Assembly: GCF_000344615.1 (NCBI RefSeq) | Contig: NZ_KB467824.1 | Span: 847,658-911,657 of the forward strand | Source: Janthinobacterium sp. CG3 | GTDB taxonomy: Bacteria; Pseudomonadota; Gammaproteobacteria; Burkholderiales; Burkholderiaceae_D | DNA: 64,000 nucleotides | Direction of reading: 5' to 3' | Shown here: in pieces, positions 13,521 to 31,147 of the stretch | How positions within the stretch are numbered: position 1 is the stretch's first letter | Layout: each line of letters begins with the position of its first letter | Translations under genes and position numbers: made by a program | The notes under the pieces: model-generated | Told to the model about the DNA's origin: nothing | The model's input: the letters and a program-made list of their open reading frames with translations, nothing else | The model's database searches: none

Positions 13521-14498
13521 ATGGATGAGAAGGAATTGTTGCGCGTTATCGCTTCCTCGAAGATTTTCAAGAATTGGCACTGGTTAAGCTACCACTTCGG
13601 AAGTCAAATTAACGGCAGACCTCATCCACTGGCTCAGGCAGTAATTTCGGCTTGCCTGATTTGCGAAGCAAAGATGCCCGGTTATGCGCCGCAATTCATT
13701 GAGCGCTTGGCAGGAGTGTCGGGGAGGGAGAAGCATATGCCAGATTGGGAGCAACTTCTTCAGCAGCTCGCCGAACTTCATGTAATCTCTTGGGTTGCAA
13801 GCTGGTACGGTGAGGGACTAGCTACGTTTGAACTCGAACCGACTACGCAACAATCGAAAAAAAACCCCGAAATCCTGTTCTCTACTGCTACACAGAACGT
13901 TGGTGTCGAGGTAAAAGCCCCAGCAATTTTCAAGCATTGGGAATCGCGTTCCGGAAACCCCATCCAATTTGCTTCGCGCTTTGCGCCTAAAGAAGTCATT
14001 GAAAAGTTGGTAGGTGACCAGTCGTCAACTCTGCCGCGCGATAATCCGGTTAAGGACTTCTTAATTAGCGCAAATGAAAAATTCTCCGGCTTTGCCTCGA
14101 GGGACCCGGGATTCATCGGCATTCTCGTAATTTGTTGGGACGATCACATATATGAGCCAATCTCTTCACTTATCCAGCCAGACTGCGGCCTCCTGACAGA
14201 GAATTCTTTTTTTAGAGATCAAGATGGACGTCCTCATCGATTCGACAATATTTCTGGAATAATCTTAATTCGCCACCTATATCAACTAGTTAGGGCTTGT
14301 AGGGACGAACCATTGATGGACGGGATTTCTCATCCGCTAGATTATGGGAAACAGGGCCAATTCCCTTGGAAGGCTTTTATCCAAAATCCTCACGGAAGGC
14401 CTGTTCCCAAAGAAGTGTTAGAGTGTTTTGATGGGCGCGAAATATGTGACGAGATGGGCGCGGAATATCGGCCTCAGGAATTTATTATGTGGCTTTAA
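13521..14498 (+). CDS. Unrecognised protein with PD-(D/E)XK nuclease-like motif
   Basis: Not a family I recognise. The 325-residue protein has no signal peptide or membrane segment. Around residues 104-134 it shows FELEPTTQQSKKNPEI, then twelve residues later GVEVKAPA. The spacing of Glu117 (NPE), Glu130 and Lys132 (VEVK) fits the core of PD-(D/E)XK nucleases, preceded by Glu-rich strand residues. A later hydrophobic strand (GFIGILVICWDD, about 200-211) could be another core strand. Codon use and GC are clearly lower than in neighbours, as expected for acquired DNA. The ATG at 13521 follows AAAGGAATGGC, a good ribosome site. It is the first of three genes in an accessory island. A nuclease role is inference from one motif. 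Confidence 0.6.
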   Translation: MDEKELLRVIASSKIFKNWHWLSYHFGSQINGRPHPLAQAVISACLICEAKMPGYAPQFIERLAGVSGREKHMPDWEQLLQQLAELHVISWVASWYGEGLATFELEPTTQQSKKNPEILFSTATQNVGVEVKAPAIFKHWESRSGNPIQFASRFAPKEVIEKLVGDQSSTLPRDNPVKDFLISANEKFSGFASRDPGFIGILVICWDDHIYEPISSLIQPDCGLLTENSFFRDQDGRPHRFDNISGIILIRHLYQLVRACRDEPLMDGISHPLDYGKQGQFPWKAFIQNPHGRPVPKEVLECFDGREICDEMGAEYRPQEFIMWL

Positions 14499-14625
14499 TC
14501 GAGAGCTGAGCTAGTCGATAATCCGCTAATCGGATAAAATAAGCTCGTGTAGAGTGAGCTCCACATTCCGGCAACAGATGGTTGAAAAACACTGGACGCA
14601 CGACACTTTAACTTTATGAAAAGCC

Positions 14626-15966
14626 ATGTACGCACGATTTCTCTCTGCCCCCGATTCTGATGGCACTTTTGACTACTTCTCTAACGTCCTCACACTTTTA
14701 CAATACACTCAAATCGATTCCGCAGACATTCATGCCGCAATAAATTGGAAGTTCGGTGAGCCGATGGATCGACGGATGTTGAAAATCCGTGCTCTTGTAT
14801 ATCACGAGATAACCCATTTTTTAGATTTGCACACAACTTTCTGGGGCCGTCAATATGTAGTGCGCAAACTTAACTTCGCTCAGTCATTGGCAAGAGACCT
14901 TCTAGACGTGGACGACAGGCTGGCCGTATTTGCCGTAGAGACAGGAGAAATCGATATACACAAAGAACTAATTGTCGAAGGAACGCTACCGCCAACGGCC
15001 TGTCAGCGCCTCACTCATCAGCTGCAGTACGAAGAAAAATTTGGCGTGGTTTTGATAATAAACTACTGCAATGGCGATACGATCCATCATCAGGTTCCTC
15101 TCAGCACTCTTTCTTTGCTAGAAGCGCACGCCACAGCCAACGAATTCCTATGTATTCTCGAGTATGCAGCGACGACCAGCGATCCAGTTGATGCTGCAAT
15201 TATCAATCGAGAAACACGAGAAAGCTTTGATGATCTGCTCGACGACGTATCAAGGATCGAATATTCCGTCCTACTTAACCTAGCCAGGATTCATTTCCCT
15301 GATCTCGGTCTTAAGTCGCTTATGGCGATGATTTCGACCTTAGCGCGCTTCGCTTTGGACGCGAATTTCATCAGAATTGGAATAATTGCCAACCGAATTG
15401 AAGAAACATTTTCGAACCTCCGTCTTGGCCACTTTCTTTCGATGGAATTAAGACGAAACTCTCAAAGGGCGTTGATTTTTTTTAAGACCGTACTTTTTAT
15501 GTACGAATGGAAGGAGTTGCTTTGCCCAGCGGACAAATACATATATCTCGCCTTAGTGGAGTCCGATCCACATGCCGCAATGGTAGAAATGTGGGTCAAA
15601 TACAAAGGGATGGATATCGAAGATTTCGGTGACAGCTTCGAGTTTCTTTTCGAAAAATCTCTGGAAGGACTAGGTAAGTATCAAACCACGTTATGCGATG
15701 CAATGCTTGCAGCAGAGAATTTTCAGAATAGAAAGATCATAGGCAATCGCCCTATTGGTTCAATCGCCCTGCCGAGTCTGAAGTTGATAGACATGGTCCT
15801 GCATGACGGCACTATTGTAAAGACTCCAAATTCGATCAACCTTGATATTGAAGCATATTTTAACATCAACATGAATCTATTCTCGCGCATGGAAAGACAG
15901 TACCGGGAATATAGAGGAACGAGAATACACATGCCTCCGGATACGATCGAATACTTTCTTTCTTAG
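14626..15966 (+). CDS. Unrecognised protein with HEITH metallopeptidase-like motif
   Basis: Not a family I recognise. The 446-residue protein has no obvious signal peptide. Residues 60-64 read HEITH inside LVYHEITHFLDLHTTFWG, the HExxH pattern of zinc metallopeptidases flanked by hydrophobic residues as in gluzincins. A possible third ligand is Glu166 in LLEAHATANEFL, about 100 residues later. The rest is mainly helical with no repeats. The DNA is low-GC like its neighbours. The ATG at 14626 has no strong ribosome site. It is separated from the upstream gene by 127 bp and from the next by 241 bp, so each of the three island genes may have its own promoter. Peptidase activity is inferred from motif only. 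Confidence 0.6.
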   Translation: MYARFLSAPDSDGTFDYFSNVLTLLQYTQIDSADIHAAINWKFGEPMDRRMLKIRALVYHEITHFLDLHTTFWGRQYVVRKLNFAQSLARDLLDVDDRLAVFAVETGEIDIHKELIVEGTLPPTACQRLTHQLQYEEKFGVVLIINYCNGDTIHHQVPLSTLSLLEAHATANEFLCILEYAATTSDPVDAAIINRETRESFDDLLDDVSRIEYSVLLNLARIHFPDLGLKSLMAMISTLARFALDANFIRIGIIANRIEETFSNLRLGHFLSMELRRNSQRALIFFKTVLFMYEWKELLCPADKYIYLALVESDPHAAMVEMWVKYKGMDIEDFGDSFEFLFEKSLEGLGKYQTTLCDAMLAAENFQNRKIIGNRPIGSIALPSLKLIDMVLHDGTIVKTPNSINLDIEAYFNINMNLFSRMERQYREYRGTRIHMPPDTIEYFLS

Positions 15967-15999
15967 AGTCAATAACGTAACTGGATGAGCTAATGGCGA

Positions 16000-16032
16000 C
16001 AAGGTCCGCTTCGGGTCGGAAGCAGTCGGTCG
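16000..16032 (-). repeat. Relic repeat copy 2 (inverted relative to copy 1)
   Basis: Read on the minus strand this is GACCGACTGCTTCCGACCC, then GAAGCGGACCTTG. That resembles the stretch at 13404-13436 with the same GACCG start and AGCGGAC end. It lies between the HEITH gene and the HEPN-like gene. The surrounding 241-bp gap (15967-16207) has no gene but also holds a perfect palindrome further right. Confidence 0.45.
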
Positions 16033-16151
16033 CGACAAGCAGATGCCTGGGCGACGAACACCCGGGACACTACGGCAATTGTGCTTCCAAGCGAGATTGC
16101 AGGGCAAGCTGCTGCTGTATTCGATACCAATTGATAAGCGGTGCCAGCATG

Positions 16152-16173
16152 GCATAATCGCTAGCGATTATGC
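16152..16173. promoter_or_regulatory. Perfect 22-bp palindrome, probable operator
   Basis: The half-site GCATAATCGCT is followed directly by its exact complement, giving an uninterrupted 22-bp dyad. It is centred about 45 bp upstream of the ATG at 16208. AT-rich sequence suitable for a promoter follows it (TAAATTTGCATTAATTT). Uninterrupted dyads of this length upstream of a start are typical of dimeric repressor sites. No regulator gene is seen in the island, so the binding protein is unknown. Confidence 0.6.
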
Positions 16174-16207
16174 TCAGATAAATTTGCATTAATTTCGAAC
16201 TGTTTAC

Positions 16208-17080
16208 ATGACTAAGAACCGAGTTCCAATGTATCCACGGGATGGCGCCGCCTCATTTAAATTGCCCTCTGAAAAAGAAGGGACGATTCAGCGAATGATC
16301 CCACTTGGGGAGTTTGCTGAAATGTTCACTGAGGAAGAGACGTTTAAAGTTCAGAGTCCCGAATCAGTAGATCCCGAAAGGACAAATCCGCATGCAATGT
16401 GGGTTACAGCAAAGATTGCAGATGTTGGATCGTCTTCTCCCATAGTGGCAAGGACACTTATCATGGCGCATGACATGCTGAGAAGCCGTATTCCGTTAAG
16501 CGATGATCAGAAGATAAAAAACGTGCTCCTGCTAATGCATAAGATCAAGAACAATCTTTTGCAATGCAGCCACTCCTCGGCCACTTACATTGAAGCTGAG
16601 AAAGAGCAAGCTGAGGTATTTGCGAATACAGTTCAAGGAGGCAGTACCCGAGCATACGCAAACTTCCCTGTTGTTCCCGACATCGAATCAACGGTTACGA
16701 ATTTCCTTATCTCCGCTCGGCGAATCATTACTGACGTATGCCAAATCCCTGTTCACTTTTTGGATACGAAGCAAACTCATAGTTCACTCGACTATCTTCT
16801 CGACAAGGAATTGGTACCCCGTCTTGGCAACGAACACCGAATGGTCATCTGGTTCAAAGAGAAAGCCGATAGCATCAAAAGGATTATCGCATTTCGAAAC
16901 GGGCAAGAACATGGGGCCACAACGAAGGGCGCAACGCTCGTTATTGAGAATTTTGCGCTACTACCGACCAATGAAGTGCATGTGCCTTTGTGGTATTTGG
17001 ACGGACAAAGTCCCACTTCCATTGCTGAAGAGATGCCGATTATGGTAGAGGCCTTAGTTGATTCGCGGAAACGATGTTAG
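16208..17080 (+). CDS. Unrecognised protein with HEPN-like RNxxxH motif, 3' frameshifted
   Basis: Function not recognised. The 290-residue reading is mostly helical and cytosolic. Near the C-terminus it has IIAFRNGQEHG, with Arg230, Asn231 and His235 in the RNxxxH arrangement seen in HEPN-domain RNases. A helix rich in K and N (MHKIKNNLLQC, about 110-120) lies upstream. The C-terminus as read (DSRKRC) looks artificial. One base earlier in frame, the DNA continues as an open reading FAETMLVGCIDATLP and on to 17226, which looks like the native tail, so the intact protein would have about 339 residues. Low GC like its neighbours. HEPN assignment rests on one motif and predicted helices. Confidence 0.5.
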   Translation: MTKNRVPMYPRDGAASFKLPSEKEGTIQRMIPLGEFAEMFTEEETFKVQSPESVDPERTNPHAMWVTAKIADVGSSSPIVARTLIMAHDMLRSRIPLSDDQKIKNVLLLMHKIKNNLLQCSHSSATYIEAEKEQAEVFANTVQGGSTRAYANFPVVPDIESTVTNFLISARRIITDVCQIPVHFLDTKQTHSSLDYLLDKELVPRLGNEHRMVIWFKEKADSIKRIIAFRNGQEHGATTKGATLVIENFALLPTNEVHVPLWYLDGQSPTSIAEEMPIMVEALVDSRKRC

Positions 17081-17226
17081 TCGGCTGTATTGATGCGACC
17101 TTGCCTGATTTTCCACCGATGATGTTGGTGCAAGCAAAGCTTAAACCAGTGTGTCCGGTCCAGTACGAGCTCATCGTTGACGCTTCACGTCTAAAGTTTC
17201 CAACTGCGGAGCAGGAAGCTAAATAG
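17062..17226 (+). pseudogene. Out-of-frame 3' tail of the HEPN-like gene
   Basis: In the frame one base back from the 16208 gene, the DNA is open from 17062 to the TAG at 17224. It encodes FAETMLVGCIDATLPDFPP, then MMLVQAKLKPVCPVQYELIV and a short polar end. It joins smoothly after Asp285 of the upstream reading if one base is restored near 17060. An ATG at 17074 (overlapping the upstream stop) could alternatively start a free 50-residue protein, but there is no ribosome site other than coupling. A single-base deletion or a sequencing error is the likeliest explanation. Confidence 0.5.
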
Positions 17227-17332
17227 GTATGCAGGTTGAGATTCGCATTTTTTTCATTGTCCTGCACACGCGGCTTCGACGGTTGGTAAGTCTTGGATCG
17301 AAGGCATTTCAATCTCAAGCGTTGTATATTCC

Positions 17333-17366
17333 AAAGTCCGCTTTGGGGCGTTTGCGGACTGTCAGC
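17333..17366 (-). repeat. Relic repeat copy 3 (partial)
   Basis: Plus-strand AAAGTCCGCTTTGGGGCG, then TTTGCGGACTGTCAGC, shares the GTCCGCTT core with copy 2 and the CTGTCAGC piece with copy 1. It lies just beyond the last island gene. Similarity is short and was judged by eye. Confidence 0.35.
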
Positions 17367-17433
17367 GCTATCGGGGAATTATTGTGGGAATATTTGAAAC
17401 CACATTGTCGATTTTCTGGACTATGGCGCTCGC

Positions 17434-17481
17434 CCTGTGGCTACCGCAATTTCACTTTACGGAATTGCCACAGGTTTTTTT
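17434..17481 (+). terminator. Rho-independent terminator at island end
   Basis: The arms CCTGTGGC (17434-17441) and GCCACAGG (17467-17474) pair perfectly, with extra pairing AATT/AATT inside the loop. Seven T residues follow (17475-17481). The T-run is on the plus strand, so it terminates transcripts coming from the accessory island. It lies next to the end of the minus-strand lipoprotein gene. The 17227-17433 stretch before it contains no convincing gene. Confidence 0.75.
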
Positions 17482-17495
17482 ATCTTAGACTTTAC

Positions 17496-18239
17496 TTAGC
17501 GAATGCCGAGGAAAGCGGTTCCGTGGTTGCGCGACGCGTCCGTGCCAGCGATCAGCAATTGGCGCCGGCCGTTGGCAAGCGGATATTCCACCGCAATACC
17601 GCTAGCGTTCTGTCCAGCCGTGCTGCAGGGCGCGGAACCAAACGCCAGCGTGAAATCGAATATATTCTTTCCCGATGCGCGCGGCTTCATGGCGCCGCTA
17701 AACGAGCAGCCGTTGGACGAGCCGGTGAAGGCGCCAGTCGCAGCGACAGTCAACGTAACCGGCTTGCCCAGCAGGTCGGTCAGATTCCACGCCCCGGCGA
17801 TATTGGCGAGCTTGGCCTCGGTATCGTACAAGTAGGTCGAATTCGGTAAAGTGGTGCTGCCGACAAATTTGTATTCGATCGGGCCTTCCGTCACAGTACC
17901 GTTCAAGCTCGTCTTCGGCACATATTTGGTGTTGAGGGTGCCTGACAGGACGGTTCCGTCTGCTACGAACTCTTTCAGATTGGTCGAGGTCAGGTTGCCA
18001 TTATCGACCTTGCCGCTGCCTTGAATGAAGCCGCCGACCGCGAGGCCGCCACCGACAAGTGGTGCGCCAAACAGCGTGTAAAATTCATGGTCCTCCAACA
18101 CGACCGTATAGTGGACGGCGGCGTTGTCGATAGTTCCTTCATACACGCCTTCTGCGCTAGCTATCGAATCGCCGCCGCCGCAACCGGCCAGTAGTATCGA
18201 TAATAAGGAAGCGGCCACTGTTGCATGTTGATATTTCAT
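17496..18239 (-). CDS. Predicted lipoprotein of unknown function
   Basis: The 247-residue product begins MKYQHATVAASLLSILLAGCGGG, a signal peptide with a clear lipobox (LLAGC), so the mature N-terminal Cys should be lipidated. The mature part is rich in Gly, Thr and Ser and predicted mainly beta. It has no motif I recognise; two Cys in the C-terminal half (NGCSF and APCST) may form a disulphide. The ATG at 18239 is chosen because it starts the signal peptide; an upstream TTG at 18263 would add eight polar residues. It is divergent from the Amj-type gene, with an AT-rich 219-bp region between them that must hold both promoters. Confidence 0.75.
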   Translation of the reverse strand: MKYQHATVAASLLSILLAGCGGGDSIASAEGVYEGTIDNAAVHYTVVLEDHEFYTLFGAPLVGGGLAVGGFIQGSGKVDNGNLTSTNLKEFVADGTVLSGTLNTKYVPKTSLNGTVTEGPIEYKFVGSTTLPNSTYLYDTEAKLANIAGAWNLTDLLGKPVTLTVAATGAFTGSSNGCSFSGAMKPRASGKNIFDFTLAFGSAPCSTAGQNASGIAVEYPLANGRRQLLIAGTDASRNHGTAFLGIR

Positions 18240-22908: not shown

Positions 22909-22985
22909 CGTAGGTCGGATTAGCGTAGCGTAATCCGACAACGCCGGCGTGACGCGGGCGTGCCCGGTTACGCCATACCGGCTCA
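22909..22985. repeat. Family A repeat, partial copy
   Basis: It begins CGTAGGTCGGATTAGCG, then TAGCGTAATCCGAC, forming a hairpin. The remainder (GTTACGCCATACCGGCT) matches the inner part of other copies, but the TTGGCGGCAT end is missing. The right edge touches the stop codon of the minus-strand FHA gene at 22983. Confidence 0.65.
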
Positions 22986-24524
22986 AGCGGTCGACAAGGC
23001 GTGCGCGGCAATGGTGCTGTGCAGATCGTCGGCGCCGGTGCGGATGATCCAGCATTCCGGATACGGTTCGCTGGCGAAGCGGTTGTGCTTGGCGACGCGG
23101 CTCAGTTTGTCGAGCGTGGTGCTGGGTCCGAGCGCGGTTTCCTTGCCGGTCAGTTGGTCGAGGTGCCAGAAGCCGCCGTCGTGGTGGAACAGCAGCGGCA
23201 GCGCGGCAGCGTTCGGCGCGGCGGCGAAGGCCGGCAGCGGATAGCCGGGATGGCGGTCCGGCGCCAGCAGGTAGAAGCATTCGGCCTGCGCGCCCTGGTC
23301 GATGCGGTGCAGGATGACGCCGTGCGGCATGATGGCGCTGACCGACAACACGACGATGCCCTTGATGCTGGCGCTGAGTTCGATGCGCATGCCCAGGCGC
23401 AGCGGCGTCGGCTTGTTTTTACCCGGCCATACGCCGTCGAGCAGGATGCCATAGCGCGACACGTCCTCGATTTCAAAGCCGTTGTTGCAGCGCCGGATGG
23501 CCGCGTGGCGGCCGGACAGGCGCCGCGTCAGGCCGCTGTTGTCCTGGCCGTCGTCGCCGAAATGGCTCAGCAAGACGTCCGATTCCGGGTCGACCAGCTC
23601 GAAGCGGCCCAGCACGCACTCGTCCAGCGCGAACAGGCGGATTTGCCGCTGCGCGCCGGCTTCCGGCGCGGCGTTGACCAGGCAGGCGGCGCGGCTCGGA
23701 TGCGGGTGCGCCCGGCTGGCGCCCGGCAGGTCGATTTCAATCAGCTCCTCGTCCCACGCGATGGTGGTGAAGCCCATGTCGATCTTGCCCTGCGGCGCGC
23801 TCAGGTCGACGTGGGCGATGCCGGCGTTGCGCGCGGTGACGTCGAGGTCGTAGCCGCCGCCGGCCGGCGCGCTGACCCGGGCGATCGAGGCGTCGTCGGC
23901 CATGACGCGCACGTTTTTGTGCGTGCTCAGGAAAATCTGGTGGATTTCGGTCAGCGTGGCGTCGCGCCGCGGCACCAGGATGACGAAGGTGCACACCCAT
24001 TTCTGCGCCTGCGCGGCGGCGTCGGCGGCGCTGAGCACTTCGACCTCGATCTGGTACTGGCCGTGCTCCTTGTTGCGCGACGAGAATTCGACGAACACCG
24101 GGCGCCAGTCGCCGCGCGTGGTGCGCACGAACTGCTGGCGCGCCGCGCCGTGGGTGATCAGGTCCGACTGCAATTGCATGGTGATCTGCGGCGGGCAGTT
24201 TGCCGGCATGCCGCGCAATTCCATTTTCAGGGTCTGGCGGCCGCCGGCGGCGCGCGGGTCGAAGCCGCTGATGTGCAGATGGGCGTGGTTGAGTTCCTTG
24301 AACGGCGCCGGCGCGCGGCCGGCGGCGAGGGCGGGGGGCGTCGCTGCCGCCGGGCCGCTCGGCGCGGGCGCGGGAACGCCGCCGCGTGCGCCGCGCAGCG
24401 TGCGCAGCAGCTCGTAGCTCGACGGCGGCGGCGCGGTTTGCGCGTGGCCGCTGGCGCAAGTGTTTTCCCCAGGCATTACCCATAGCGTACAGTGCGGGTG
24501 ATCCGGGTTACAACATTTTTTCAT
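22983..24524 (-). CDS. FHA domain protein with N-terminal Cys/His cluster
   Basis: This 513-residue cytosolic protein is predicted to bind phosphothreonine peptides. The N-terminus has Cys4, Cys5, Cys12 and Cys23 with nearby His (PDHPHC, CASGH), which looks like a small zinc-binding knuckle. A Pro/Ala linker (about 30-80) leads to a beta-rich middle of unknown type. An FHA domain lies at about 290-390 (VLGRFELVD, then SGRHAAIRRCNNGFEIEDVSRYG), with the conserved GR, SxxH-like SGRH and following N/S positions. It is the last gene, 162 bp after the PP2C gene, of a minus-strand run with a kinase and a SEDS protein. Its likely partners are substrates of that kinase. Confidence 0.75.
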   Translation of the reverse strand: MKKCCNPDHPHCTLWVMPGENTCASGHAQTAPPPSSYELLRTLRGARGGVPAPAPSGPAAATPPALAAGRAPAPFKELNHAHLHISGFDPRAAGGRQTLKMELRGMPANCPPQITMQLQSDLITHGAARQQFVRTTRGDWRPVFVEFSSRNKEHGQYQIEVEVLSAADAAAQAQKWVCTFVILVPRRDATLTEIHQIFLSTHKNVRVMADDASIARVSAPAGGGYDLDVTARNAGIAHVDLSAPQGKIDMGFTTIAWDEELIEIDLPGASRAHPHPSRAACLVNAAPEAGAQRQIRLFALDECVLGRFELVDPESDVLLSHFGDDGQDNSGLTRRLSGRHAAIRRCNNGFEIEDVSRYGILLDGVWPGKNKPTPLRLGMRIELSASIKGIVVLSVSAIMPHGVILHRIDQGAQAECFYLLAPDRHPGYPLPAFAAAPNAAALPLLFHHDGGFWHLDQLTGKETALGPSTTLDKLSRVAKHNRFASEPYPECWIIRTGADDLHSTIAAHALSTA

Positions 24525-24651
24525 GGCGGGGGTGACGGAGGCGCTTGGCTGGACAAGGTAAACCAGAGCTTACGCGCTTTTGGTGGCCCGTGGCAACTTT
24601 CTCGACAATAGAAACGGATATTTTTGCGCCAGATCGTGGCCGCGCCAGCAA

Positions 24652-24675
24652 CGCAACAGTTGCGTAACTGTTGCG
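24652..24675. promoter_or_regulatory. Perfect inverted repeat between PP2C and FHA genes
   Basis: The arms CGCAACAGTT and AACTGTTGCG are separated by GCGT. On the minus strand it lies just after the PP2C stop (24687) and about 130 bp before the FHA start (24524). No T-run follows on either strand, so it is not a standard terminator. It may be an operator or an RNA hairpin that separates expression of the FHA gene from the upstream genes. A further CAACTG repeat follows at the right. Confidence 0.5.
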
Positions 24676-24686
24676 CAACTGTCGTG

Positions 24687-25676
24687 CTAGGTGGCGCGCG
24701 GGCGGGCCTCTCCCGGCAGTGCCGTTTCGTCAAGATTGCGCGCGGGCCGCTGCGGGCGGAAGCGCAGCGCCAGCGCGCTCAGGTTATCGACGTGCAGGCC
24801 GGCCGGCGGGTTGTCGAGGAAACTGTCGAACAGCGCGTCGAGCGCGCCGGCGGCGTCCAGTCCGGCCAGCAGCGCCGGCCAGCGCGCGACCCAGCGGTCG
24901 GGCCGGGCGCAGGCCCAAAAACCGTCGCTGGCGAGCAGGTAGAGCGCGTCCGCGCGCACAGTCAGGGCGCGGCGGTCGCCCAGTTGCCGCAGGAACGGCG
25001 GCAGGTTGGCGTCCGCCAGCGCGTACAGCGGGCCGGCCAGCACCTGCGGGTCGCTGATGGCGTTGCCGAGGATGAAAGCCTGCGAGATTTGCGGGCGGTG
25101 CTCGCCATGCACCTGCTGCCACCACTCGGCCTCGCCGAGCAGGCCGTGCAGCGCGAAGGTGGTGGCCGGCACATGGTCGATCGTCAGCGGCGTGGCCTGG
25201 CGCGCGGTGATTTCATACAGGCGCGAGTCGCCCACGTGGTACAGCAGCGGCGCCTGGCCGGGCCGCAGTTCCAGCAGCGTCAGCGTGGTGCCGGGGCGCT
25301 TGGCCTGGGCGCCGTCCATCGCGGCGAAGCGCGCCTGCAGCGTCTGGTGCAGCGCGTCGAGCCGCTCGGCCAGTTGTTCCAGCGTGGCGCAAGCCGGCAC
25401 CAGCAACAGGCCTTGCACCACCGCTTCGGCGGCCTGGCGCCCGTGGCCGTGGCCGCCCATGCCGTCGAGCACGGCGATGCGCACCTGTCCGGCCGGCCAG
25501 CCGGACACTTGCCGGTTCTGCTGGCGCTGGTCGAGCAGGAACGCGGCGCGGCCGTTGCCGTCGATCAGCAGCAAATTGTCTTGGTTTTCCGGCAGCGGCG
25601 GCGGGCCGGCGCCGGCGCAGCTGCGCGCCGCCACGTCCAGGCCGGGTCCGAAGTCGAGCGTGTCTGTCAATGGCAT
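24687..25676 (-). CDS. PP2C-family serine/threonine protein phosphatase
   Basis: This metal-dependent phosphatase is expected to reverse the kinase encoded at the head of the same gene run. The 329-residue cytosolic product has the PP2C motifs ENQDN (residues 30-34), VLDGMGGHGHG (about 69-79), GTTLTLLEL, HVGDSRLYE, LLASDGFW and, near the end, HVDNLSALAL. All metal-binding aspartates are present. The first motif lacks the usual RxxNED arrangement (here PENQDN), which still keeps the Asp. The ATG at 25676 follows the SH3 gene by about 120 bp. Confidence 0.85.
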   Translation of the reverse strand: MPLTDTLDFGPGLDVAARSCAGAGPPPLPENQDNLLLIDGNGRAAFLLDQRQQNRQVSGWPAGQVRIAVLDGMGGHGHGRQAAEAVVQGLLLVPACATLEQLAERLDALHQTLQARFAAMDGAQAKRPGTTLTLLELRPGQAPLLYHVGDSRLYEITARQATPLTIDHVPATTFALHGLLGEAEWWQQVHGEHRPQISQAFILGNAISDPQVLAGPLYALADANLPPFLRQLGDRRALTVRADALYLLASDGFWACARPDRWVARWPALLAGLDAAGALDALFDSFLDNPPAGLHVDNLSALALRFRPQRPARNLDETALPGEARPRAT

Positions 25677-25798
25677 GTTGGCGGGCGAAATATTGTCGCG
25701 TTAATCATCTGATATAGCTTAGCCGAAAAATGGCTTGCGGCCGCGGAAATATTGTCGTCGCAGCGCCCAGGTCAACGCGCGCCGTTGGTTTGAATGAA

Positions 25799-26254
25799 TT
25801 ACGGAGCCGGCGCCTCGGCGGCGCGGCGCAGCCACAGGCTGCTGGCCCAACCGACGCTGGCGTGGCCGTCGACATTGACGCTGACCTGCCACCAGTCGCC
25901 GTCGCGCACGCCGGTCGGCGTCAGCGCGGCGCCAGCCGGAATGGTGGCGATGCGCGCCGAGTTCACGCCGGCGCCGGCGCGCAGGTTCAAGTCCTGGTGG
26001 GCGCGGTAGGCCTGGCCGGCGACCGGCGCCGCGGCCGGATTAACCGTCGGCGATCCGTCCGGCGCCGTAACCGTAACCGGAAACAGCGGCAACATCAGGC
26101 TGCCCAGACCCCAGGTGCCGCCGGCCAGCAGCAGCAACGCGCGCGCGGTCGGGCGGCGCCACCAGCGCCGCGGCGTCAGCCACGCCGCCAGGATCAGTGT
26201 CAGGCACAGCCCCGCGGCATAGGCGGCGAGGCGATACAGGGTATCTGGTTGCAT
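25799..26254 (-). CDS. Membrane protein with bacterial SH3 domain
   Basis: The 151-residue protein has two hydrophobic segments (about residues 10-26 and 39-60). A short linker follows, then a bacterial SH3 domain (about 80-145) with the typical LNLRAGAG, ARIATIPAGAALTP, DGDWWQVSV and GWASSLWL strands. Bacterial SH3 domains of this sort usually face the periplasm and bind peptidoglycan or peptides. It lies 20 bp after the 26275 gene, in the same operon as kinase, SEDS and PP2C. A sensor or wall-binding role is inference. Confidence 0.75.
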   Translation of the reverse strand: MQPDTLYRLAAYAAGLCLTLILAAWLTPRRWWRRPTARALLLLAGGTWGLGSLMLPLFPVTVTAPDGSPTVNPAAAPVAGQAYRAHQDLNLRAGAGVNSARIATIPAGAALTPTGVRDGDWWQVSVNVDGHASVGWASSLWLRRAAEAPAP

Positions 26255-26274
26255 GCAAGCTCCCGGCGCGCCGT

Positions 26275-27831
26275 CTAAACGTCAAAGCGCAGCACGTAGT
26301 GGCCGGCCACCAGGTGGTGGCCGGGCGGCAGCAGGTAGGGCGCGTCGGCGCCGGCGTCGCCTATCCTGGCGACGAAGCGCAGCTCCTCGTCGAGGTGGTA
26401 AAGCGCCTGCGCCGGCGCGATGCGGCCGATGTGGAAGCCCTGCGGCGTAGCCTCGAAGCTGAAGGCGTTGCGCGACAGGCCGATGCGGTCGGCGCTGGCG
26501 CCGTCGGCGCCGTCGCCGCATTGCAGGAAGCGCGGCCCGTCGAGCAGGCGCAGCGCCGCCAGCGCCGGCGCGTTGCGGCCGAACACGAAGCGGGCGCCGC
26601 CGGCCACCGCCAGGCCCACCGGCTGGGCCAGGCTGAGCGTGGCGCAGTAGCGGTCGGCCAGTTCCGGGCCGACCGCCAGCAGGTTGATCGCGCGGGCGTC
26701 GACCGGGGTGAAGCTGGCCGGCGCGCTGATGCGCTGGCGGCCGGCTGCGGTGCTGGCGTACAGTTCGTCGGCGGCGTTGACGCTGAAGCAGATGGCCGGC
26801 CCGGCGCCGCCGGTGAGCGCCAGCGCGCCGTCAAACGGGATTTCCAGCGCGCTGGCACCGCTGTCGCGGTAGCGGCTCAGGCGCGGCAGCGCCAGCGCCA
26901 CCACGCTGACGCGTTGCTGCGCCAGCGGCGCATAGGTGGCGTCGCTCTCGGCGGCGCGCGTCTGCGGGCGGTGGCTCAGCGGCAGCGCGGTCGGTTCCAG
27001 CCCCGGCGCGGCCGGGTGCGCCGACGGGCGCGGCTGCCACACGGCGGGCTTGACGGCCTTGGGCGGCAGCGGCACGGGCGCGACGGCCGCCGAGTGTGGC
27101 ATCACCCGCGGCGCGCCGACCCGGGCGATTTTCAGCAGCAGGCGCGCGCCGGCCTCGCGTTTCGAGCTGATGGTGTAGTGGCCGCGGGCGGCGTCGAAGC
27201 GGCACTCGAAGGCGTCCTTCGGGCGCATTTGCACCTCCAGCGGCGCGTCCGGGCCGTCGTTGATGAGCAGCACGGCGCCGTCCTCGCCGAACGGCCAGCC
27301 GGCGGCGGCGAAGCTGGCGTGGCCGCCGTCGCCGCCGATCAGCGCCAGGCGCTGGTTCGGGTAGATCGGGCAAACCGGCTGCCACACCGCGCTGTCGCGC
27401 GAGACGCTGACGTTGTACAGGATTTTTTCGTCGGCCGCCGGCAGGTAGACGGCGTGGCCGAAGCGCACTTCGATCTGGCCGGCGCGCAGGGCCTCGGCGC
27501 CGACGACGTCGTAGCGTACCTGGTCGGCGCCGAGCAGGTCGCCGAAATCCTTCTGGTGCAGCGCCGTCAGGGTCTGCGCCAGTTCGCGCGTCTTGGCGCC
27601 GCGGGTCAGGTGGTAGTCGTCCTCGACCTCCTCCTGCGGCAGCATCAGCGTCACGTGCGAGAAGCAGCGCGTGGCGGCGCGGCCCTTGTGTTCGCGCGGG
27701 CTGCGTTCGAGCAGGTCGCGCAGCAGCGGACGGCGGGCGAACAACGCCAGGCCGGGCGCCTGCCAGATCGCCTCGCCGTTGAACACGTCGGGGACTTTGC
27801 CTATGACTTCGTGCTGGACGTAGATCGGCAT
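26275..27831 (-). CDS. Uncharacterised protein with divergent C-terminal FHA-like domain
   Basis: The 518-residue protein has no signal peptide. The N-terminal 200 residues (MPIYVQHEVIGKVPDVFNG onward) are not recognised. A beta-rich middle and a Pro/Ala linker (about 250-320) follow. The last 95 residues read FVFGRNAPALAAL, then IGLSRNAFSFEATPQGFHIG, which resembles the FHA order GR-x-SRxxxxxx, with Asn in place of the usual His. The ATG at 27831 has an excellent ribosome site (AGAGGAGAA) and lies inside the end of the SEDS gene (31-bp overlap). A much longer reading from 29676 in this frame is overlap with the SEDS gene and is rejected. Confidence 0.65.
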   Translation of the reverse strand: MPIYVQHEVIGKVPDVFNGEAIWQAPGLALFARRPLLRDLLERSPREHKGRAATRCFSHVTLMLPQEEVEDDYHLTRGAKTRELAQTLTALHQKDFGDLLGADQVRYDVVGAEALRAGQIEVRFGHAVYLPAADEKILYNVSVSRDSAVWQPVCPIYPNQRLALIGGDGGHASFAAAGWPFGEDGAVLLINDGPDAPLEVQMRPKDAFECRFDAARGHYTISSKREAGARLLLKIARVGAPRVMPHSAAVAPVPLPPKAVKPAVWQPRPSAHPAAPGLEPTALPLSHRPQTRAAESDATYAPLAQQRVSVVALALPRLSRYRDSGASALEIPFDGALALTGGAGPAICFSVNAADELYASTAAGRQRISAPASFTPVDARAINLLAVGPELADRYCATLSLAQPVGLAVAGGARFVFGRNAPALAALRLLDGPRFLQCGDGADGASADRIGLSRNAFSFEATPQGFHIGRIAPAQALYHLDEELRFVARIGDAGADAPYLLPPGHHLVAGHYVLRFDV

Positions 27832-30167
27832 GATGGATTCTCCTCTAAAGATAATGCGCTGGCCGCGCTGAACGCTAGCAGGGGGCACAGGAAAAACAGC
27901 AGGTGGCTGCCGCCGGCGGACAGGAAGCTCATCGGCTGCCCCATGATTGGCAGGATCGCCAGGTTGGTGCCCCAGGACAGCAGCAGGTGGCCCAGCACGA
28001 AGGCGGCGCCGCCGCACAGGGTGAAGTAGCGGAAGCGGCCCAGCCAGGCGTGGCGGTGGTCGCGCGCGGCGGCGCCGGCGGCGTGGCCGCGCAGCGCCGT
28101 GCGCAGCAGGCCGACGATGAAGGCCGCTTGCAACGCCCATAGCAGCAGGGCGCCGACCAGGCCGTGGCGATTCAGGAAAAAGGCCGGCGCGAAGTCGTCC
28201 TGCACCGCCGGGATCAGCAGCGCGGCGCCGGCGCCCTGGCCCAGGCCGGCCAGGCCCAGCATGGCGTCGGCGCCCCACCAGCCGCCGTCGCCGATGGCGC
28301 GCGCGCCCAGCAGCAGTTGCTGGCCGGTGTGCGGATGCAGCGCCGGCGCCAGCCAGGCCTGGAAGCGGTCGGCGTAGAAGTCGCCGGCCGGCGCCGCCTC
28401 GCCCGGGTCGGCGCCGCCGTGCATGCCGGCGATGGCGCCGGCCGCCAGCAGCACCAGCAGGGCCAACGCCGCCGCCAGAGCGCGGTTGCGCGCCGCCAGC
28501 GCGTAGGCGAACGCCATCGCGGTGCCCCAGACCAGCAGCAGGATCAGCGGCGAGTAGTCGTCGACCTGGACCAGCGCCACGCCCAGCAGGGCCAGGAACA
28601 GCAGCGCCGGCGCGACCAGGCGCAGCCAGCGCGCGGCGCGGCTGTCCCGGTGGTGGTCGTCGCCATGCCAGCCCAGGCGCAGCGCCAGACAGTGCGCGCT
28701 CAGGGCGGTCAGGGCCAGCTTGGCCAGTTCCACCGGTTGCAGGTCGAAGACGCCGGTTTCGTCGCCCCACAGCACCTGCATGGCCAGCGCGAGCAAGGCC
28801 AGCGCCGCCAGCGCGGCCAGAACCGCTTCGACGCCGCGCTGGCTGGGTACGCCCGTGTGGCGCGGGCCGCACAAGCGCCAGGCGCCGCCCAGGCCGGCGC
28901 CGATGGCCAGCAGGGCGGCGCTTTTCTGGTAATAGCGCAGCCACGAGGTTTCCATGCCGCCCAGGCCGAGTTCGAGTTGCGCCAGCAGGCCGGCCGCCAG
29001 CAGCAGCACGGCGGCGGCGCCGGCCAGCGTGAGGCGTCCCGGCAGGGCCAGCCATAGCCACAGCGCGGCGCCGGCCAGCGCCATCGACTGGGCCGCGGCG
29101 GGGGCGTGGCCGGCGCGCTGTAGCGCCAGCGCGGCGACGCCGCCGAGCAGTACCGCGGCGCACGCCAGCGCGTCGGCGCGCCATGAGCGCGCCGGCGGCT
29201 GCGGCCGCAACGTGGCCGCCAGCAGCGCCGCCAGCGCCAGCGCCAGGGCGCACCACAGCGGCGCCGCGGCGGCGCCGCTCCAGAGCGCGCGCCGCTGCCA
29301 TTGCCAGCTCAGCGACGGCGGCAACTGCAGGTCCGGCGCGCTGAACAGGGTCACGCGCCGGCTTGGCAGCAATTGCAATTGCCCGTCGGCGGCGCCGAGC
29401 TGGAAGCGGGTGTGGCCGACGACGATGGCCTGCACGCCGTCCAGTGGCAGTTCCTGCCGGCGCAGGTCGGTGTCGAGGCCGTGCGCCGACAGGGTCAGCG
29501 CGGCGCGTTCGCCGTCCGGGTTGCCGGCCGCCAGTTGCAGGCGGCCGTCGATGCGCGCCAGCCAGGCCGCGCCTGGCGTGACGTCGGCCAGGCCGAGCCG
29601 GTTGGCGCAGTGGACGTTGCCGCCGAAGGTCAGCGGCCGGCCTATCGTCAGTATCGCCGGCAGGGCGCGGTTCCACAGCGCCAGCGCGCGCGCGCCGAGG
29701 CGGGCGTCGGCGCAGGGCGCCTGCGCCTGGCCGTCGCGGTACAGCACCGCGCCGTCGTAGCGCCAGTGGTGGCCGTCGCGGGCGAAGCCGACGCTGGCGG
29801 CGTCGGCGTCCTCAACTTCGAAGCGGGCGGCGCCGATTTGAAAGGCCTGGCGCGCCGCCAGGCTGGCGCTGCCCATGCGCCGCTCGCCGGCCGCGCTGTG
29901 CAGCACCACCTGTTTGGCGGCGCTCAGGTTGCGCAACCACCAGGCGCCGGCGCCGTCGCGCCGCAACGCGATATGGTTATGGTCGGCCTGCGCCGCCGCC
30001 AGCTCGTGGCGGCCCAGTGCGACGCTGCCGCCGGCGTCCAGGCTGACCGTGATGCGCGCCGGGAACCAGGCGTCGGGCGCGCGCCACAGGCTCCAGGCCT
30101 GCAGCAGCAACAGCAAGGCTAGCGCGCAGGCGGTGGCGGCGCGCGGCGTTGGCCGCAACGCCATCAT
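27801..30167 (-). CDS. SEDS (FtsW/RodA/SpoVE) family protein with N-terminal FHA-like domain
   Basis: This is a probable peptidoglycan glycosyltransferase-type integral membrane protein of 788 residues, about twice the usual FtsW/RodA size. After a first helix (11-27), residues 39-118 look FHA-like (ALGRHELAAAQADHNHIAL, WWLRNLS) and residues 120-290 are soluble. Then come about ten membrane helices. SEDS motifs are seen at 474-484 (FDLQPVELAKL), 654-672 (PAVQDDFAPAFFLNRHGLV, with the Asp corresponding to the essential loop-4 residue) and 739-758 (LPIMGQPMSFLSAGGSHLLF). Its start overlaps the kinase stop (ATGA). No class B PBP partner is encoded in the run. It is clearly not the main FtsW or RodA, judging by context and divergence. 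Confidence 0.8.
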   Translation of the reverse strand: MMALRPTPRAATACALALLLLLQAWSLWRAPDAWFPARITVSLDAGGSVALGRHELAAAQADHNHIALRRDGAGAWWLRNLSAAKQVVLHSAAGERRMGSASLAARQAFQIGAARFEVEDADAASVGFARDGHHWRYDGAVLYRDGQAQAPCADARLGARALALWNRALPAILTIGRPLTFGGNVHCANRLGLADVTPGAAWLARIDGRLQLAAGNPDGERAALTLSAHGLDTDLRRQELPLDGVQAIVVGHTRFQLGAADGQLQLLPSRRVTLFSAPDLQLPPSLSWQWQRRALWSGAAAAPLWCALALALAALLAATLRPQPPARSWRADALACAAVLLGGVAALALQRAGHAPAAAQSMALAGAALWLWLALPGRLTLAGAAAVLLLAAGLLAQLELGLGGMETSWLRYYQKSAALLAIGAGLGGAWRLCGPRHTGVPSQRGVEAVLAALAALALLALAMQVLWGDETGVFDLQPVELAKLALTALSAHCLALRLGWHGDDHHRDSRAARWLRLVAPALLFLALLGVALVQVDDYSPLILLLVWGTAMAFAYALAARNRALAAALALLVLLAAGAIAGMHGGADPGEAAPAGDFYADRFQAWLAPALHPHTGQQLLLGARAIGDGGWWGADAMLGLAGLGQGAGAALLIPAVQDDFAPAFFLNRHGLVGALLLWALQAAFIVGLLRTALRGHAAGAAARDHRHAWLGRFRYFTLCGGAAFVLGHLLLSWGTNLAILPIMGQPMSFLSAGGSHLLFFLCPLLAFSAASALSLEENPSCRSTSSTKS

Positions 30168-31147
30168 GCCGGCCCCGACGTGGCCGTGGGCAGGCCGGCG
30201 CGCATGGCCGCCAGCATGCGGCTGATTTGCAGCGCGTTGTCCGGCCTCCCGGCGGGGGCCGCGTCGAGCAGCGCCCGCAGCATGGCCAGTGCGGCGCGGG
30301 CGCAGGCGGCGCCAGCCGCCAGTGCCACGCGGCGGCTGAACAGCGCCTCCTCAACCGGCTCCAGCGTGGCCGGCATGGCGCCGCCGCCGTGGCGCAGCAA
30401 TAGCGCGGCGCCACCGGCCTGGTGGTCGCGGTAGGCCTGGCCGCAGGCGTCGCAAAAGCGCAGAGGGGTGCCGCCGGTGGCGAGGAAGTAGAACAGCGCG
30501 CCCAGCGCGAAGTAGTCGCTGCGGGCGTCGCTGGCGTAGCCGCCGCCGGCCTGCGGGAAGAACTGCTCCGGCGCCTGCCAGCTGGCGGTGCCGGCGTAGG
30601 TCTGCGGCGCCGCCTCGGCTGCCGCGCGGTTGGTGCCGAAGTCGGCCAGCTTGACGCTGTGTTGACGGGCGTCGAGCAGCACGTTGGCCGGTTTCAGGTC
30701 GAGGTAGCGCCAGCCGTACTGGTGCACCTTGGCCAGCGCCTGGTTGAGCTGGCCGGTCCAGTCGAGCAGGCGCGCGAAGGGCACGGCGTGGCCGGCGCTT
30801 TTCAGGCCGGCGACGTGCTGGCCGAGGTCGCCGTCGAGCAGTTCCAGCGCCAGCACCGGCAAGCCCTGGTGGCTGCCGCTGTCGAGCAGGCGTACGATGT
30901 GGCGCTGGTCCCATGCTTGCAGCGACTGCAGAAAGGCGATTTCATTGGCGGCGCTGGCGACCCAGCGGACGCGCTGGCGCGGCTGGGCCAGCGCCATCTG
31001 CGGCTGGTTGACCAGTTTGAGGGCGACCTCGCGCAGGCCATGCGGACCGCTGGCGCGCCAGACGACGCCATAGGCGGAGCTGGCGATCTGTTCGCGCAGG
31101 CGGTAATGCCCGCGTTCCAGTGTGATGATTGCGCCCGCTGCCAACAT
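30164..31147 (-). CDS. Serine/threonine protein kinase, cytosolic, non-RD type
   Basis: This 327-residue Hanks-type kinase lacks a transmembrane segment or PASTA repeats. Visible motifs: a degenerate glycine loop (IASSAYGVVW, 21-30), VALK with Lys44, Glu69, the catalytic loop YLDLKPANVLL (Asp150, Asn155; HRD is replaced by YLD), DFG at 169-171 and a WQAPEQ activation/APE region. C-terminally it has a CDACGQ pair of cysteines. It is the first gene of the minus-strand run, and its stop overlaps the SEDS start. Paired with the PP2C phosphatase and FHA proteins, it should form a reversible phosphorylation switch. Non-RD kinases often do not need activation-loop phosphorylation. Confidence 0.87.
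   Translation of the reverse strand: MLAAGAIITLERGHYRLREQIASSAYGVVWRASGPHGLREVALKLVNQPQMALAQPRQRVRWVASAANEIAFLQSLQAWDQRHIVRLLDSGSHQGLPVLALELLDGDLGQHVAGLKSAGHAVPFARLLDWTGQLNQALAKVHQYGWRYLDLKPANVLLDARQHSVKLADFGTNRAAAEAAPQTYAGTASWQAPEQFFPQAGGGYASDARSDYFALGALFYFLATGGTPLRFCDACGQAYRDHQAGGAALLLRHGGGAMPATLEPVEEALFSRRVALAAGAACARAALAMLRALLDAAPAGRPDNALQISRMLAAMRAGLPTATSGPA

Follow-up and report, generated by a model that had tools for sequence, protein, structure and literature searches.

A six-gene run in Janthinobacterium sp. CG3 is read here as half of a bipartite locus that would build and control a third, phospho-regulated peptidoglycan synthase, composed of a SEDS protein and a penicillin-binding protein (PBP), besides the FtsW-FtsI and RodA-PBP2 pairs; we give this reading a probability of roughly two in three. 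Model Gram-negatives have two SEDS-PBP machines. The run lies within a 64,000-nucleotide stretch of the 6.27-Mb genome, hereafter the window. The evidence, drawn from sequence, consists of gene content, conserved kinase, phosphatase and transpeptidase motifs, the SEDS fold with its catalytic aspartate, and the joint presence and absence of the SEDS and PBP genes. The gene content parallels that of the mycobacterial pstP-rodA-pbpA-pknA-pknB-fhaA-fhaB locus, which holds kinase, PP2C, SEDS, PBP and FHA genes (PMC6554272, in excerpt). Because SEDS proteins partner with class B PBPs (PMC8765783, in excerpt), a third synthase pair is the simplest reading. The original prediction had described six minus-strand genes, the first three overlapping, the fourth following after 20 bp and the PP2C and FHA genes after gaps of about 120 and 160 bp, and re-reading the window bears this out:

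30164..31147, minus strand: Ser/Thr kinase (KIN), 327 amino acids, no transmembrane (TM)-like segment
27801..30167, minus strand: third-class SEDS protein, 788 amino acids
26275..27831, minus strand: FHA-fold protein (G3), 518 amino acids, without a Pfam match
25799..26254, minus strand: SH3 protein, two TM-like segments and a bacterial SH3 domain
24687..25676, minus strand: PP2C-type phosphatase, conserved PP2C motifs
22983..24524, minus strand: FHA-domain protein (gene 6), Cys/His-rich N terminus

The SEDS protein and its probable giant partner

The SEDS protein scores 81.5 bits against PF01098, above the curated cut-off of 26.4, and its predicted fold is that of the SEDS family. An N-terminal TM segment is followed by an FHA-fold region (residues about 33-292), extra TM helices and the SEDS core (about 375-775). 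Residue D658, which corresponds to the catalytic aspartate D297 of FtsW, is invariant among 28 SEDS sequences; here and below, alignments A1-A6 draw on selected subsets, each of 16-28 rows. E. coli FtsW has ten residues at which mutations abolish septal synthesis (PMC8765783, in excerpt), and five of them map as retained here (Q147, Y242, D297, G371 and G381). The protein misses the NCBIfam equivalog cut-offs for both ftsW (67.9 versus 337.5) and rodA_shape (60.4 versus 336.7), and in a phylogenetic tree it forms its own clade outside those of FtsW and RodA, with 100/100 support and on long branches. For this tree, rows were trimmed by alignment-based cuts, eight near-copies were removed and references came only from Burkholderiales and E. 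coli. The source genome also carries two canonical SEDS genes, FtsW and RodA, each with a neighbouring transpeptidase. The possibility that SEDS motifs had been lost or that the protein belonged outside the family is not borne out, as fold and catalytic aspartate persist, though only about half of the known FtsW active-site residues do.

Eight Transpeptidase matches were found in the source genome, two of which adjoin FtsW and RodA. Three others were read (L172, L176 and L177), and L173-L175 were left unread. L172 is by sequence a membrane sensor-like protein, and L176 a bifunctional-looking PBP. L177 is a giant PBP of about 1100 amino acids, encoded about 850 kb from the SEDS gene in this genome. 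It scores 47.5 bits against PF00905 (cut-off 22.1), and its sole NCBIfam match is pbp2_mrdA, at 50 bits versus a cut-off of 455. The SxxK, SxN and KTG motifs (S757-T-F-K760, S842-L-N844 and K1020-T-G) are invariant in 27 sequences; two loci, L181 and L183, were passed over when the PBP loci were read.

In a second run the genes for B454, B287, B370 and B355 come after that of the giant PBP, and then those for a zinc-ribbon/SPFH protein and for FGEK, a Ser/Thr kinase that carries an FGE domain. The same seven-gene order occurs in all 11 carrier genomes fetched, and a Pfam search with B454, B287, B370 and B355 returned no match. The original prediction had noted the lack of a class B PBP; this is corrected here, since the set does include one, the giant PBP, in a second run that is split off in the source genome. 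In FGEK (L178:188-2473), a kinase-FGE fusion, the N terminus also gives a SHOCT match below threshold, and the FGE domain may serve to sense a ligand.

Joint inheritance of the two enzymes

Searches of 195 genomes of the family, the same genomes for both proteins (E thresholds of 1e-10 for SEDS and 1e-30 for PBP, with all positives itemised and negatives itemised in part), revealed SEDS and PBP together in 36 and neither in 159, so that the two sets are identical. The "non-canonical SEDS enzyme or transporter" proposed earlier can accordingly be narrowed to a divergent SEDS protein with the same distribution as a PBP. Of the 35 other carriers, 29 have both genes on a single contig at a spacing of 13-32 kb, and 6 have them on different contigs. 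Within the source genus the pair is present in one of 13 genomes, the source genome itself, and a Pfam family search of nine same-genus genomes found two SEDS genes in each.

The search for the SPFH protein covered 53 of the 195 genomes, picked to reveal negatives, with the other 142 outside it. It yielded 11 matches, four in SEDS-positive genomes and seven in genomes without SEDS, two of the latter being distant. Five genomes from carrier genera retain SPFH while both SEDS and PBP are absent. G182 keeps 11 of the 13 genes and has lost exactly SEDS and PBP, its kinase and G3 matches lying 117 bp apart with no Ns between them. G040 retains SPFH, FGEK, FHA and PP2C, and G067 and G177 retain SPFH, FGEK and FHA; in all three, the kinase-SEDS-G3-SH3 and PBP-B454-B287-B370-B355 sides are both gone and the middle remains. 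In G125, SPFH and FGEK are retained and their contig measures 4,775 bp. For these genomes the absence of SEDS and PBP refers to a genome-wide search, and that of KIN, G3, SH3 and the B genes to the fetched stretches. A single deletion could hardly account for separated genes missing around a retained middle, and the pattern points to a shared function; it comes from few lineages, and we claim no formal significance for it. Two further genomes, G187 and G176 (L232 and L233), have distant homologues of FHA, SPFH and kinase only, with no wall enzymes in the fetched stretch; this trio is perhaps an older phospho-module to which the synthase was added.

Synteny, signalling proteins and distribution

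A scan of named genomes for the cluster found at least 80 loci, and all counts out of 80 are among the matches listed. The complete six-gene set is present in 68 of these, collinear and on a single strand in every one, which answers the question of whether synteny would fail in relatives. Eight of the 12 incomplete loci are interrupted by an end, one is without PP2C and three are without PP2C and FHA in the fetched flank. Genera represented include Duganella, Massilia, Rugamonas, Pseudoduganella, Telluria and Janthinobacterium, the closest of the listed loci by SEDS identity both being from the last (L125, 78%; L112, 70%). The set occupies mostly one chromosomal site, as an M28 peptidase gene and a glycine-zipper gene each neighbour it at 70 of the 80 loci. 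The SH3-PP2C gap exceeds 500 bp in 32 of the 74 loci with both genes. This gap, often wide, holds unrelated genes where it was read, so the kinase-SEDS-G3-SH3 genes are probably transcribed apart from PP2C-FHA, an operon structure deduced from gene spacing. At L037-L040 the extra genes include, where read, GNAT and MFS, and at L129 (Massilia sp. H-1) several cluster genes matched as fragments only, through decay or sequencing errors. FGEK appears in the flank of 41 of the 74 named loci with an FHA gene, always on the opposite strand and 0.2-4.7 kb away, a count limited by flank length. It is not in the flanks of two named Janthinobacterium loci, and the split may therefore be shared there. Elsewhere in the window, positions 13521-17849 have low GC content (44.7% at 14-16 kb and 50.1% at 16-18 kb, where most of the window has about 62-70%) and carry four large plus-strand open reading frames without a Pfam match, an insertion-like arrangement.

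Pfam assigns families to five of the six proteins, G3 being the one without. Conservation was counted on full-length proteins, available from 75 (SEDS), 72 (kinase), 76 (G3), 76 (SH3), 72 (PP2C) and 72 (FHA) of the 80 loci, plus the window. KIN residues K44, E69, D150, K152, N155 and D169, which we take as marks of an active kinase, are invariant in 25 aligned sequences, and the PP2C motifs ENQDN, DGMGGHG, GTTLT and GDSRL are conserved in 73. Gene-6 residues G306, R307, S337 and H340, presumably marking a phosphopeptide-binding FHA domain, are invariant in 27. G3 and the SEDS extension both display an FHA fold. Their sequence profiles have no clear similarity to the gene-6 FHA domain, and kinship between G3 and gene 6 thus found no support by that route. 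Profile comparison detected resemblance only between the two halves of the SEDS extension (65.5%, E 5.8e-5). Against PDB sequences, profiles A1, A2 and A3 found no match. Neither kinase, KIN or FGEK, has a PASTA match or a TM-like segment.

In wider samples of genomes, which are not exhaustive sets, matches came from two of 398 phylum genomes for G3, two of 299 for SEDS, and, within the order, two of 250 for gene-6 FHA and three of 250 each for SPFH and PBP. G710, from another family of the same order, lies outside the 398-genome G3 sample by handle number and probably outside the 299-genome SEDS sample too. Within about 42 kb it holds homologues of PP2C, G3, SEDS, KIN, PBP, SPFH, SH3, B355, B370, B287 and B454, with PBP adjoining KIN-SEDS-G3 in divergent orientation and with the SEDS aspartate and PBP motifs kept. 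The gene-6 FHA was not found in G710; other proteins carry the FGE domains there, and the only one tested fuses a caspase with FGE. Several FGE-domain proteins are interspersed with the wall locus there (C2 8000-62000; L242-L244), and two proteins of lytic-transglycosylase type in this stretch, SLT/LysM and MltA, are possible bystanders.

A proposed phospho-regulated synthase and its alternatives

In the mechanism that we favour, the divergent SEDS protein would polymerise glycan and the giant PBP would crosslink it. KIN, encoded beside SEDS, and FGEK, in the second run, may phosphorylate the synthase or its partners, as the gene set suggests. Genes 3 and 6 encode the FHA proteins that would recognise the phosphosites and restrain or free the synthase; PP2C would reset it, and the SPFH protein might act as a scaffold for the complex.

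The proposed actinobacterial-style switch holds to the extent that a conserved kinase, phosphatase, FHA and SEDS set, with kinase and PP2C motifs kept, parallels the mycobacterial locus in betaproteobacteria; its PBP-less form was the part that required correction. On the excerpted account, both loci have two kinases, FHA proteins and a single PP2C, SEDS and PBP; in the present set these genes are linked in relatives and split in the source genome. Here, in contrast, the kinases have neither a TM-like segment nor a PASTA match, one of them bears an FGE domain, the SEDS protein has an FHA-fold extension and extra TM segments, the PBP reaches about 1100 amino acids, SPFH, SH3 and four unnamed proteins are added, and the distribution is limited. 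RodA-PBP2 and FtsW-FtsI share with the new pair the SEDS fold, the catalytic aspartate and a co-inherited PBP, whereas the SEDS protein here falls in a separate clade in a genome that also has the canonical genes. Salmonella PBP2SAL, from a second elongasome, is 63% identical to PBP2 and uses the same RodA (PMC10492807, in excerpt); on that account it is likewise a conditional alternative PBP in a Gram-negative, but here SEDS and PBP are both divergent and phospho-signalling genes are attached.

Several observations weigh against a third synthase, chief among them the altered SEDS cavity and the genus-clustered distribution. FtsW residues A135, W138, P196, G199 and R243, the other half of the set in PMC8765783, are changed or unaligned, and SEDS substrate or activity may therefore differ; parts of the structure model near the active site are also of low confidence. 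Presence is clustered by genus, with within-genus differences in g1, g11, g18 and g40, so that few independent events underlie the 36/159 division. A single in-frame stop is present in the SEDS rows of each of 6 of the 36 genomes and in one PBP row, and G091 and G108 have short fragments of contig-end type as one of the two matches or as both. G182 lacks both enzymes yet keeps all regulators, which must then have other work or be decaying.

Among the alternatives, the one closest to our reading accepts the SEDS-PBP pair but has it make or attach another periplasmic glycan, or act as a regulatory, catalytically altered pair. We regard this as unlikely: the catalytic aspartate is invariant and kept even in G710, the transpeptidase motifs of the partner are intact, the usual substrate of transpeptidases is peptidoglycan, and FtsW and RodA match the SEDS protein far better than WaaL does. 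Less probable again is a stress or conflict system of defence-like character, in which the wall enzymes would be effectors and the FGE-domain kinase would sense a ligand. The FGE domain on the second kinase, the several FGE-domain proteins of G710 with their caspase fusion, and the absence of the set from many relatives suit such a system, as do the FGE, caspase, kinase and FHA domains of described conflict systems (PMC7159879, PMC8195603, in excerpt). Against it stand the M28 peptidase and glycine-zipper neighbours shared by most relatives; a plasmid match was looked for and none was found, which speaks against a plasmid-borne element, and the main text of those two papers mentions neither FtsW nor penicillin.

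A phospho-relay of the type VI secretion system (T6SS), like PpkA/PppA/Fha, would explain why kinase, PP2C and FHA occur together, and there is a weak TagH match (16.6 bits versus a cut-off of 120). Of 42 genomes tested, however, 40 have TssB whether or not they carry SEDS, including the five SPFH-positive, SEDS-negative ones, and it is absent from two SEDS-positive genomes; as the original prediction noted, no T6SS genes lie near the run, and such a relay is very improbable. Equally hard to credit is a set of unrelated neighbours with no common function, which the genes between SH3 and PP2C in some relatives might suggest. Collinearity in 68 of 68 complete sets, the joint presence and absence of SEDS and PBP, and retention of most of the set in the family of G710 all speak for a functional unit.

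According to the excerpted text of one review, Gram-positives account for most of the bacterial Ser/Thr kinases known and Gram-negatives for few (PMC6213207). In the literature covered, which included few subscription journals, we found no description of the set in proteobacteria, in agreement with the original prediction, which knew of none in betaproteobacteria, and the locus is apparently a kinase-linked wall-building machine of Gram-negatives that is new to the literature. A more specific proposal, which could as readily prove wrong as right, is that the divergent SEDS protein with its extracytoplasmic FHA-fold extension and the giant dedicated PBP form a lineage-specific third synthase, whose dedicated two-kinase, PP2C and FHA circuit was assembled independently of the actinobacterial one. 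The system is presumably dispensable, since relatives exist without it. If the third-synthase reading is true, it would offer a dispensable setting in which to ask how phosphorylation switches a SEDS-PBP synthase on and off, with the relatives that lack exactly the two enzymes serving as ready-made natural mutants.
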